DNA of 27,858 nt from Deltaproteobacteria bacterium (GTDB taxonomy: Bacteria > JAUYMQ01). Positions 7,065-14,965 of the stretch are shown one piece after another (position 1 is the first letter of the stretch; every line of letters starts with the position of its first letter). A program made the translations under genes and the position numbers. The notes beneath the pieces were generated by a model. The model ran no database searches and had not been told where the DNA came from. It was given only the letters and a program-made list of their open reading frames with translations. Location of the stretch: NCBI GenBank assembly GCA_030698575.1, contig JAUYMQ010000337.1, forward strand, positions 1 to 27,858, given 5' to 3'.

Positions 7065-7192
7065 ATTCGAAGGCTTATCCCCGCTCTGAGGGCCTTTTGG
7101 GTTGCGTTCGAGGGGCAGGTAACCTAGCCTTTGCCGCGTTCATGCGGCCTCGGGGTGACACCCGCACCGCCCGGATCGGAGGCGGACGCTTC

Positions 7193-8146
7193 ATGGAAAG
7201 ACTCCGCGTCGGGATCGTCGGCGGCAGGCGCCGACGGCAGGGGCTCGGCCCCTTCGTGGTGCGGTTCCTGAATCAGGCCGGCGCCGAAATTGGCGGGCTC
7301 GTCGGCACGCGCGAAGATACCCTCGACAGCGCCATTGCGGATTTGAAAACGCGCTATGGCATCGAAGCCCGGGGTTACCTGACCCTCGAGGCCTTGCTCG
7401 AGGCCGAGTCGCCGACAGCTCTCGCCATCCTATCGCCGGCGAACACGCACCAGGGCTATCTCGATGCCGCGCTCGAGGCGGGGCTTCACGTCCTCTGCGA
7501 GAAGCCCTTCGTCTGGGGGATCGACACGCTGGCGGAGACGAGCCGGCGGATCGTGCGGGGGTTCCGGGCGCGCCGTCTCAGGCTCCGGGAGAATTGCCCC
7601 TGGCCTTACACGCTTCCGGCCTATGAGCGGCTGCACCCGGGAGCGCTTTCGCGGGGGGTGGGCCGCTTCGAGATGCTGCTCTCACCCGTCTCCACGGGCG
7701 TGCAGATGCTGGGCGACGCGATGCCTCACGCGCTCAGCCTTCTGCAGGCGATAGCGCCCGGGGAAAAGGTCACGCTCGGTCAGATTCATTACTCCACCCG
7801 GGCGAGCGATGCTCCGGAGGTAACCGTGGCCTTCCGGTTCCTGTCGGACGGCCGGGAAGTCGAGTCCGAGGTCCGGCTCCTGCGCCAGGAGCGCCAGCCT
7901 CGCGAGGCCGGCTACGGCGTCGACGGATGCTGGGCCAAACGCACGGTTCGGATGGAGGACTACGCGCTCTTCTTCGGGGACGGCGGCCGGACGGTCGAGG
8001 TTCCCGATCCGCTGGAGTTGCTGGTCGCCGATTTCGTGAACGATCTGGGGGACGCCGCCGCGGGAGACGATGAACGCCGCGGCGCGGAGATCATCCAGCG
8101 AATGCTGCTACTGGATCAGCTCACCCGAGCCTACGAGGGGTCTTGA
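7193..8146 (+). CDS. Gfo/Idh/MocA-family oxidoreductase
   Basis: A predicted NAD(P)-dependent sugar or cyclitol dehydrogenase, 317 residues, cytosolic. The N-terminal Rossmann fold begins RLRVGIVGG, but the glycine loop carries a run of arginines (GGRRRRQGLG) in place of the common GxGxxG. The family motif is present as LCEKPF near residue 100, after SPANTHQGYLDAALEAG. The C-terminal half has the open-sheet substrate domain, including ENCPWPYTLPAYE and GDAMPH. ATG at 7193 is chosen: it follows GGAGGCGG and leads directly into the Rossmann strand, whereas the frame is open from 7097 without family-like sequence. The next gene, a radical SAM enzyme, begins 37 bases after its stop, which suggests a shared pathway. 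The substrate is unknown. Confidence 0.85.
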   Translation: MERLRVGIVGGRRRRQGLGPFVVRFLNQAGAEIGGLVGTREDTLDSAIADLKTRYGIEARGYLTLEALLEAESPTALAILSPANTHQGYLDAALEAGLHVLCEKPFVWGIDTLAETSRRIVRGFRARRLRLRENCPWPYTLPAYERLHPGALSRGVGRFEMLLSPVSTGVQMLGDAMPHALSLLQAIAPGEKVTLGQIHYSTRASDAPEVTVAFRFLSDGREVESEVRLLRQERQPREAGYGVDGCWAKRTVRMEDYALFFGDGGRTVEVPDPLELLVADFVNDLGDAAAGDDERRGAEIIQRMLLLDQLTRAYEGS

Positions 8147-8183
8147 GAGAGGCCCGCGAGGGGCCAACCGTGAGGGAGAATCT

Positions 8184-9407
8184 TTGAGCCACACGATTCA
8201 TGATTTCAGAGGGAAACTGCTGCAGCCGGCCCTGCGGGATCACATGCGGGCATACGTGGACTGGCGGAAAGCGCTCGGCACGGCACGGAAGGAAGGGAAG
8301 CCGGCGCCCGAGACCCCCGATCTCGCGCCGATCTCCATCAATCTCGATCTCACGACCGCCTGCAACTACCGCTGCGATCACTGCATCGACTGGGACATCC
8401 TGAATTCGCGCCACAAGCACGTCGAGGCGGAGTTGCGACGCTCGGTGGAGCGCATGGCCGGGCGGGGTCTCAAGTCGGTGATCCTCATTGGCGGCGGTGA
8501 GCCGACCCTCTATCCCGGCTTCGCGGGATTCGTCGAATTCCTGAAGGGCCTCCGGCTTCAGGTGGCTGTTGTCTCGAACGGGGGGCGCGGCAACCGGCTG
8601 CTCGAGGCCGCGGAGCACCTCGATGAGCACGACTGGATCCGCCTCTCGCTCGACTCGGGCAGCAACGACCTCTTCCTGGCCATGCACAAGCCGGTCGACA
8701 AGAAGCTCGATCTCGATTCCATCTGCGAATGGATTCCGAAGATCAAGGAGCGCAACCCCCGCGTGAGGGTCGGTTTCTCCTACATCATCGTCTGGAAGGG
8801 CGCCGAGCGCTCCGGGGTGGAGATTCACGAAAACATCCACGAGATCGTCATGGCCACCGAGCGGGCGCACCGCTACGGCTTTGACTACATCTCGCTCAAA
8901 CCCTTCCTCGAGCGATCGCCCGAGGGCGCCGAAGTGATGGACCCGACCCACGCCCAGGAAGAGCTCGATGCAATTGTTCGCCGGATCCGCGCCGAGGTCG
9001 ATCGCGCCAAGTGCCTCGCGACGGAGAAATTCGACGTCTACGAGAGCACGAACCTCCGCGTTCTCGAGGAGGGCAACTGGAAGGACTACACGAACCAGCC
9101 GCGCACCTGCCACATGCAGGCGCTGCGACAGGTTCTGACACCCACCGGGCTCTACAACTGCCCCGCCCATCGGGGCGAGCATAAGGCGCTGATTGCCGGC
9201 CCTCAGGCCTACTGCGACGACGATGCTTCGCGGGGGACCAGTGAAGGGCTCCTGAAGATCCTCGACGGTTTCGACGCGAGCCACGAGTGCCGCGAGGTCA
9301 CCTGCCTCTACAACGGGGTGAACTGGTGGATTGAAAAGATGATTGAGGATCCCCGCGAGGATGTTGATCTTCCGCTGGCCGACGAGCGGCTGGACTATTT
9401 CCTGTAA
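8184..9407 (+). CDS. Radical SAM enzyme with Cys-rich C-terminal region
   Basis: 407 residues. The radical SAM core has the 4Fe-4S site CNYRCDHC (CxxxCxxC) near residue 55, the GGGEPTL motif, VVSNGG and a LSLDSG strand. The last 120 residues carry five further cysteines (TCHMQ, YNCPAHRG, AYCDD, HECREV, TCLYNG), compatible with a SPASM- or twitch-like auxiliary cluster domain; that assignment is inference. A TTG at 8184 is chosen because GAGGGAG ends 5 bases before it and the protein then starts SHTIHDF; the frame is open upstream but overlaps the preceding gene. It is co-directional with the Gfo/Idh/MocA gene and probably co-transcribed. No precursor peptide gene is seen, so modification of a small molecule such as a sugar is as likely as peptide maturation. 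The reaction is unknown. Confidence 0.88.
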   Translation: MSHTIHDFRGKLLQPALRDHMRAYVDWRKALGTARKEGKPAPETPDLAPISINLDLTTACNYRCDHCIDWDILNSRHKHVEAELRRSVERMAGRGLKSVILIGGGEPTLYPGFAGFVEFLKGLRLQVAVVSNGGRGNRLLEAAEHLDEHDWIRLSLDSGSNDLFLAMHKPVDKKLDLDSICEWIPKIKERNPRVRVGFSYIIVWKGAERSGVEIHENIHEIVMATERAHRYGFDYISLKPFLERSPEGAEVMDPTHAQEELDAIVRRIRAEVDRAKCLATEKFDVYESTNLRVLEEGNWKDYTNQPRTCHMQALRQVLTPTGLYNCPAHRGEHKALIAGPQAYCDDDASRGTSEGLLKILDGFDASHECREVTCLYNGVNWWIEKMIEDPREDVDLPLADERLDYFL

Positions 9408-13646: not shown

Positions 13647-13777
13647 ACCGCCTCCGTTTTTCCCCCCACGCCTGAATCCTTTTTCGCGCTTCCGGCATCA
13701 GGATAGGGAGGGGTTTGCGCGCCGCCGGCCCCCGGCAGGGCCGGTCCAGGTCAACAGAGTCAAGAGGAGGAAGACGC

Positions 13778-14965
13778 ATGGCCGCAGGAAAGAATGGTTC
13801 CGCGCTCGATGTGGAGCGCGTGGTCCGCGAGCGGTACGGGGAGGCCGCGCGCGGGCGCGAGGAGGCGCTTTGCTGCCCCCTGGAGTACGACCCCCGCTAT
13901 CTCGAGGTCATTCCGGAGGAAGTTCTCGAGCGCGACTACGGTTGCGGAGATCCGTCGCGCTACGTGCGCGAGGGCGACACGGTTCTGGATCTCGGCAGCG
14001 GCGGCGGCAAGATATGTTTCATCGCGGCGCAGATCGTCGGACCCAAGGGGCTCGTGATCGGTATAGACATGAACGATGAGATGCTCGCGCTTGCCCGCCG
14101 GAGCGCCCCGATCGTGTCCGAGCGCGTCGGCTATGCGAACATCTCCTTCCACAAGGCCCGCATTCAGGATCTCGCCCTCGATCTCGACAGGCTCGAGGCG
14201 AGGCTCAATGACAAGCCGGTCAAGAGCCTCCACGATCTCGCGTCCCTCGACGAGTACTCCCGGCGCCAGAGGGCCGGGCAGCCTCTCGTTCCCGACGCGT
14301 CCGTCGACGTCGTCATATCAAACTGCGTCCTGAACCTCGTGCACGACGCCGACAAGCCGGCGCTCATCCGGGAGATCTTCCGCGTCCTGAAACCCGGCGG
14401 CCGCATCGCCATCTCTGACATCGTGAGTGACGAGTTCGCGCCGGAGGCGCTCAAGGCCGATCCGGAACTCTGGAGCGGCTGCATTTCCGGCGCTTTCCAG
14501 GAGGAAGAGTTGCTGCGCGCGCTCGAGGAGGCGGGATTCTATGGCATCGCCCTGGATCAGTGGGTCGAGGAGCCCTTCCGGGTAGTCGATGGAATCGAGT
14601 TCCGCGCGATCACGGTGACGGGGCGAAAGGGAAAAGAAGGGCCCTGCTTCGAGGCGAACCAGGCGGTGATCTACAAAGGTCCCTGGAGGCAGGTCGAGGA
14701 CGACGACGGCCACGTGCTTCGCCGCGGCCAGCGGGTGGCCGTGTGCGCCAAGACCTACCGGATCTACACGTCGCCTCCTTATTCGCAGGACGTCATCGCG
14801 GTCCCGCCGCGTATCGAAATTCCCCTGACGGCCCGGGAGCCCTTCGACTGCGCGCGCACCGCGCTCCGCCACCCCCGCGAAACCAAGGGCGAGGCCTACC
14901 GCGAAAGCACGCCGGCGCCGGCCGCCGGCAGCGGCGGCTGCTGCGCGCCCGGCGATTGCGGATGA
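13778..14965 (+). CDS. ArsM-like SAM-dependent methyltransferase with Cys-rich tail
   Basis: 395 residues. The SAM-binding motif is DLGSGGG (about 71-77), with IGIDMND as the acidic strand. Three cysteines align with the conserved triad of arsenite methyltransferases: Cys56 in YGCGDP, Cys183 in SNCVLNL and Cys235 in WSGCISG. An additional Cys32-Cys33 pair precedes them, and the protein ends [10 protein letters not shown]. Compared with well-known ArsM proteins there is an insertion of about 25 residues before Cys183 and a C-terminal extension of about 100 residues. AGGAGG sits 7 bases before ATG 13778. An OsmC gene follows and DoxX precedes. Methylation of As(III) or another thiophilic metalloid is the best guess; no arsR, arsB or arsC is present nearby to confirm it. 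Confidence 0.82.

Follow-up and report, generated by a model that had tools for sequence, protein, structure and literature searches.

Conserved pairing of a Gfo/Idh/MocA oxidoreductase with a radical SAM enzyme, possibly for heptose modification, in Planctomycetota and a few other bacteria

In apramycin biosynthesis, the radical SAM diol dehydratase AprD4 and the NADPH-dependent reductase AprD3 act on paromamine (PMC5461906). DesII is a radical SAM deaminase/dehydrogenase of a TDP-sugar with a single [4Fe-4S] cluster (PMC11434129), and BlsE is a radical SAM decarboxylase of cytosylglucuronic acid, possibly with two clusters (PMC3715490). The UDP-GlcNAc 3-dehydrogenase GnnA (PDB 7bvj) takes part in lipid A sugar biosynthesis. 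The ADP-heptose pathway of lipopolysaccharide (LPS) comprises GmhA, HldE, GmhB, HldD and heptosyltransferases (PMC10948575). Our literature searches returned no radical SAM step for the known ADP-heptose pathway or in the papers found on heptose modification (e.g. PMC10440746, PMC10680097). Likewise, in the open-licence literature we found neither a radical SAM reaction described for the biosynthesis of LPS heptose nor an account of a radical SAM/oxidoreductase pair like the one presented here. The enzyme families are known; their combination and genomic context appear to be undescribed.

We analysed a window of 27,858 nucleotides, contig JAUYMQ010000337.1 of a Deltaproteobacteria bacterium. 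The gene for P0001, an oxidoreductase of the Gfo/Idh/MocA type (317 aa; positions 7193..8146, + strand), starts with ATG at 7193, and its stop codon ends at 8146, 37 nt before the TTG start of the gene for P0002, a radical SAM protein (407 aa; 8184..9407, + strand). The adjacency, common direction and 37-base gap described in the initial annotation were thus found in the open reading frames as stated. In the alignment, the TTG residue is the first residue of close homologues as well. Purine-rich, Shine-Dalgarno-like stretches precede both starts, and we read GGAGG (7178..7182, + strand) as the probable ribosome-binding site of the oxidoreductase gene and GAGGGAG (8172..8178, + strand) as that of the radical SAM gene. 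The two proteins were aligned with 36 and 40 orthologues, respectively, and both structural models are confident (pLDDT 95.1 for P0001 and 89.5 for P0002).

Upstream of the pair lie genes for thymidylate synthase and DHFR, and downstream, on the opposite strand, a BolA-like gene, all named from their translations only. A role linked to thymidylate synthase and DHFR was dropped, because these genes do not recur beside the pair in relatives. Within the window, no peptide precursor, transporter or sugar pathway adjoins the pair, as had been noted initially. Elsewhere in the window, an arsenite-methyltransferase-like protein (13715-14965) is flanked by DoxX-like and OsmC-like genes, again going by translation alone.

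A scan of genome contigs yielded 45 loci with relatives of P0002, most of them labelled Planctomycetota. In 41 of these loci, tblastn located an oxidoreductase homologue directly upstream of the radical SAM gene. At four loci (L026, L027, L034 and L095), the radical SAM gene persists but no oxidoreductase orthologue is close by; the genome of L031 encodes one elsewhere. In total, the radical SAM gene was present in 52 of 294 Planctomycetota genomes (about a sixth). Among the surveyed Planctomycetota, 47 of 48 carriers of the radical SAM gene also possess the oxidoreductase, versus none of 32 non-carriers (Fisher p = 1.5e-21, a statistic that ignores shared ancestry). The oxidoreductase profile scored at least 240 bits in 46 of the 48 carriers and was matched in two pieces in G131, while scores in the 32 non-carriers did not exceed ~61 bits; the profile search found one carrier, G261, without the oxidoreductase.

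The two genes are neighbours on one contig in most carriers. They are on separate contigs in G113 and G188 and at two contig ends in G173, and the gene order in G083 is rSAM-Nudix-Gfo. We found one fusion, in G079 (L081), where oxidoreductase and radical SAM protein form a single ORF of 769 aa. The adjacency of P0001 and P0002 is real and far beyond chance. The initial annotation had regarded the genes as a two-gene functional unit and had proposed a search for neighbouring homologues in other genomes. The adjacency and co-occurrence counts bear out the unit. Of the two findings that the annotation had named as counter-evidence, absence of adjacency in other genomes and firm assignment of each gene to a known, unrelated pathway, neither was obtained: adjacency is widespread, and both proteins stay below every NCBIfam cut-off.

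Of 386 genomes selected for their relatedness to the window genome, only two have the radical SAM gene, the window genome itself and G024. The G024 gene (L080, 9730-11148, minus strand) is a divergent homologue with 43% identity, outside the sampled Planctomycetota; it has no adjoining oxidoreductase, and an SDR-type gene follows it directly. RpoB of the window genome (G000:C48, L141) groups outside Planctomycetota, and the closest sequence compared, from G035, shares 66% identity; the RpoB tree, in which the rows of G028, G023 and G214 are poorly aligned, was used for this placement only. In the tree of radical SAM proteins, P0002 nests inside a planctomycete clade. Mis-binning of the contig as the source of the planctomycete-like pair is unsupported, because the window, with the pair in it, resembles other contigs of this genome most closely in tetranucleotide usage, and RpoB of this genome falls outside Planctomycetota. 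Horizontal transfer is the simplest reading of the origin of the pair.

P0002 matches Pfam PF04055 with 65.4 bits (cut-off 29.5), which places it in the radical SAM superfamily. In the 40 orthologues, the CxxxCxxC motif of the radical SAM cluster (C60/C64/C67; 8361..8384, + strand) and C181 are invariant, and GGGEP is nearly so. The initial annotation had counted five extra cysteines after the core and suggested an auxiliary cluster domain. The count is correct (C309, C326, C344, C369 and C374), with C277 as a sixth cysteine closer to the core. Only four of the post-core cysteines are invariant, and these are the predicted ligands of an auxiliary cluster: C309 and C326 in CX12GX3C (9108..9161, + strand), and C369 and C374 in CX4C (9288..9305, + strand). 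According to alignment and model, the protein has the arrangement of a twitch-type domain, with four cysteines, a predicted beta-hairpin (315-324) between the first two and then a helix (346-362), although its GX3C spacing is one off the usual GX4C of such domains. The SPASM set of seven cysteines for two auxiliary clusters (CX9-15GX4C ... CX2CX5CX3C ... C) was not found, as P0002 has four invariant C-terminal cysteines. Hence, the invariant cysteines and the predicted hairpin support the suggested auxiliary domain, and of the SPASM or twitch fold that was to be looked for in the C-terminal part, the twitch type is predicted and the full SPASM type is not.

None of the NCBIfam radical SAM equivalogs, including viperin, MoaA and the W-cofactor maturase, reached its cut-off with P0002; the best match was the viperin-like NF038283 (60.2 bits versus 180 required). 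Because many radical SAM families were matched, all of them sub-threshold, we did not annotate P0002 by name. In structural searches, the best Foldseek match of its model was DesII (E = 1.3e-13, ~15% identity), an enzyme with a sugar-nucleotide substrate; the two share a fold but belong to different families (TM-score ~0.58), and the four extra invariant cysteines further distinguish the P0002 family. VIA-align gave Z scores of 22.8 for SkfB (3.6 Å, 289 aligned residues), 21.2 for BlsE (3.9 Å, 302 residues) and 21.1 for DesII (4.3 Å, 338 aligned residues), the last two being tied. The BlsE alignment covers the C-terminal part and BlsE acts on a glucoside, but identity is 14% and its substrate is a carboxylated nucleoside sugar of antibiotic biosynthesis. 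The peptide-modifying enzymes SkfB and SuiB are about as near in fold to P0002 as the sugar enzymes.

P0001 matches Pfam PF01408 with 42.1 bits (cut-off 24), and its model follows the two-domain Gfo/Idh/MocA fold along the full length. It reaches no NCBIfam cut-off, with 35.4 bits versus 355 for IolG (TIGR04380) and 15.1 bits versus 450 for the archaeal UDP-GlcNAc dehydrogenase (NF040723). The predicted dinucleotide-binding loop (G10-P20; 7220..7252, + strand) departs from the canonical GxGxxG. It had been singled out as unusually Arg-rich, and the sequence GGRRRRQGLGP is indeed present; however, the alignment gives a family consensus of GAGRxRQGLGP, of which R13, G17, G19 and P20 are conserved; the additional arginines are particular to the window copy. 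Other conserved features in the 36 aligned orthologues are the EKP motif (residues 103-105, K104 and P105 invariant; 7499..7507, + strand) and the invariant residues His179 (7727..7729, + strand), R237, R250 and Y257. GnnA was both the top Foldseek and the top sequence-profile match of P0001. Yet identity is ~20%, the dinucleotide loop of P0001 is longer and altered, and no aminotransferase partner was found. The VIA list, in which many rows were tied, was led by enzymes that likewise act on sugars or sugar nucleotides, GenD2 (27.5; 2.8 Å, 281 residues), KijD10 (26.4; 3.0 Å, 286 residues) and GnnA (26.2; 3.1 Å, 280 residues). Inositol dehydrogenases have this type of fold as well. A fold in common proves no function; the matches would suit action of both enzymes on a sugar or a sugar nucleotide.

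Several genes of the ADP-heptose pathway and the LPS core are recurrent neighbours of the pair in relatives. HldE, a GmhB-like phosphatase, a stand-alone RfaE2, HldD, a heptosyltransferase and a WaaP-type kinase were found in several arrangements. The closest relatives have the order Nudix-Gfo-rSAM-GT9-RfaE2, and L107 and L108 combine HldE-GmhB-like-Gfo-rSAM-Nudix-RfaE2-LPS kinase-GT9 in one cluster. HldD lies directly 5' of Gfo-rSAM in L100, L101 and L102 and is convergent in L103. LpxB lies directly 3' of the pair in L099, and GT2/GT4 genes occur in L027 and L034. In the clade of P0002 (support 0.988; L004, L005, L006, L013, L043, L044, L095 and L096), RfaE2 adjoins the radical SAM gene or is one gene away in all eight members. 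Because the arrangements differ (downstream, divergent or convergent), the linkage appears to have several independent origins. In the closest relatives, the GT9 protein scored above the heptosyltransferase II cut-off in two of three cases tested. The neighbouring RfaE2 and GmhB-like proteins are below their NCBIfam cut-offs, and therefore their sugar may not be heptose.

At least one of RfaE2, GT9, HldD, WaaP-type kinase, GmhB-like protein or LpxB was encoded within 6 kb of the pair in 28 of 80 loci, a set biased by redundancy and by loci fetched for such neighbours. In the unbiased survey, 16 of 48 carriers had RfaE2 or HldD within 6 kb, where ~0.3 would be expected at roughly two to three matches in a 5-Mb genome; about two thirds of the surveyed carriers had neither gene within this distance. 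When 107 neighbouring ORFs were scanned in bulk against Pfam, trypsin-like proteases, methyltransferases, SmpB, DUF72 and LPS kinase recurred, the non-kinase families in 3-5 loci each, and no other pathway did. The initial statement that no known sugar pathway lies beside the pair holds for the window but fails for its relatives, in which the pair is physically linked to HldE, GmhB-like, RfaE2, HldD and GT9 genes, often together with a Nudix gene. In the window genome, HldE, stand-alone RfaE2 and HldD are encoded on other contigs. We also considered the pair as a replacement of the HldD epimerase, which is unsupported because HldD and the pair coexist in several genomes, even side by side.

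Stand-alone RfaE2-like nucleotidyltransferases occur widely in Planctomycetota, whether or not the pair is present (e.g. G119:C65, G094:C97, G294:C12); they differ from the fused HldE, near which they are often encoded. Two fused proteins were observed near the pair: one joins a methyltransferase to a WaaP/Kdo-type kinase (L089:10188-11390), the other a family 2 glycosyltransferase to a methyltransferase (L034:6034-7797).

The Nudix-type gene adjoins the pair in many loci, either upstream or downstream. Of 48 carriers, 30 have it, several times away from the contig of the pair, and none of 30 non-carriers does; it is absent from the window genome. Its Pfam match is marginal; in profile comparison, ADP-ribose and GDP-mannose pyrophosphatases are nearest (E = 3e-9 to 2e-7). 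This third co-occurring gene is predicted to encode an ADP-sugar-type Nudix hydrolase.

Given co-inheritance across Planctomycetota and the frequent heptose-gene context, the pair probably catalyses an undescribed modification of the LPS heptose. Our best explanation, which we put forward tentatively, is that the two proteins cooperate in modifying a nucleotide-activated heptose destined for the inner core of LPS or for a related glycan of the cell surface. It is based on co-inheritance, adjacency, the fusion, genomic context, predicted folds, and conserved catalytic and cluster residues. The assignment to the heptose/LPS pathway is fairly well supported. We infer the substrate, carbon position, direction and cofactor of the reaction, as well as a role of the window copy in the same pathway as its relatives. 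The most likely substrate would be ADP-heptose, or the heptose phosphate one step earlier. The radical SAM enzyme would abstract hydrogen from a C-H(OH) group of the heptose, the four-cysteine auxiliary cluster would take up or return an electron, and collapse of the substrate radical would leave an epimerised, keto or deoxy-keto sugar. With its EKP lysine and invariant histidine, the Gfo/Idh/MocA enzyme would oxidise or reduce the matching keto or hydroxyl position with NAD(P), and the Nudix partner, where present, may hydrolyse an ADP-sugar. An auxiliary cluster, which DesII lacks, would suit net oxidation or epimerisation. A keto product whose redox chemistry is completed by a partner is proposed by analogy with DesII (PMC11434129) and AprD4/AprD3 (PMC5461906). 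Likened by description rather than by sequence, the latter also combine a radical SAM enzyme with an NAD(P)H reductase on one sugar, but their substrate is paromamine in antibiotic biosynthesis, and the genomic context of our pair differs.

Alternatively, the pair could modify another envelope sugar, such as a lipid A amino sugar, Kdo or an NDP-sugar of the outer core or O-chain, and merely share its locus with heptose genes. The oxidoreductase would then resemble GnnA or WlbA in dehydrogenating an NDP-sugar at C3, and its product would be the substrate of the radical SAM enzyme, in line with the two top matches to GnnA, the downstream LpxB in L099 and the GT2/GT4 genes at L027 and L034. However, the recurrent neighbours are specifically HldE, RfaE2, HldD, GmhB-like protein and heptosyltransferase, and the Nudix partner suggests ADP-sugars over UDP-sugars, so that we consider this explanation unlikely. 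It is even less probable that the two genes serve a small-molecule pathway of their own (e.g. for a cyclitol, cofactor or natural product) with LPS genes as frequent but unrelated neighbours. Many carriers, the window among them, do lack an adjoining LPS gene, and the oxidoreductase shares its fold with inositol dehydrogenases. Yet several deep clades show linkage of the pair to heptose genes, in varied arrangements and many-fold above expectation, whereas the bulk scan offered no other pathway.

Anaerobic sulfatase-maturing enzymes (anSME) install a modification in sulfatases. Similarly, the radical SAM protein could be a maturase of the oxidoreductase or of another protein, with only the oxidoreductase working on a small molecule. 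The four-cysteine auxiliary domain and the fold likeness to SkfB, SuiB and anSME are traits of peptide-modifying enzymes, and a one-to-one pairing suits an enzyme and its own maturase. Conversely, the four loci without a nearby oxidoreductase orthologue retain the sugar context, DesII and BlsE are equally near in fold, and the invariant residues of the oxidoreductase include no obvious modifiable motif; we consider a maturase role the least probable of these three alternatives. Chance adjacency of two unrelated genes, to which only the uninformative flanks in the window lend any weight, is rejected as practically inconceivable, given adjacency in 41/45 loci, co-occurrence in 47/48 versus 0/32 genomes and one fusion.

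The cooperative modification of an activated heptose remains our preferred explanation, and it bears out in part the initial idea of redox and radical rearrangement of a small molecule, such as a sugar or cyclitol, and moves it to a specific pathway, with a sugar retained as the likely substrate. It is possible, albeit somewhat doubtful, that radical chemistry on ADP-heptose yields a chemically new LPS inner-core sugar in Planctomycetota and, by transfer, in a few other bacteria. If the explanation is true, the pair would offer two concrete enzymes for assay, along with the Nudix partner, a radical SAM family that falls below every NCBIfam cut-off would now be tied to a pathway, LPS heptose biosynthesis would include a radical step, and a new inner-core sugar would be predicted in about one sixth of the sampled Planctomycetota genomes (52/294).
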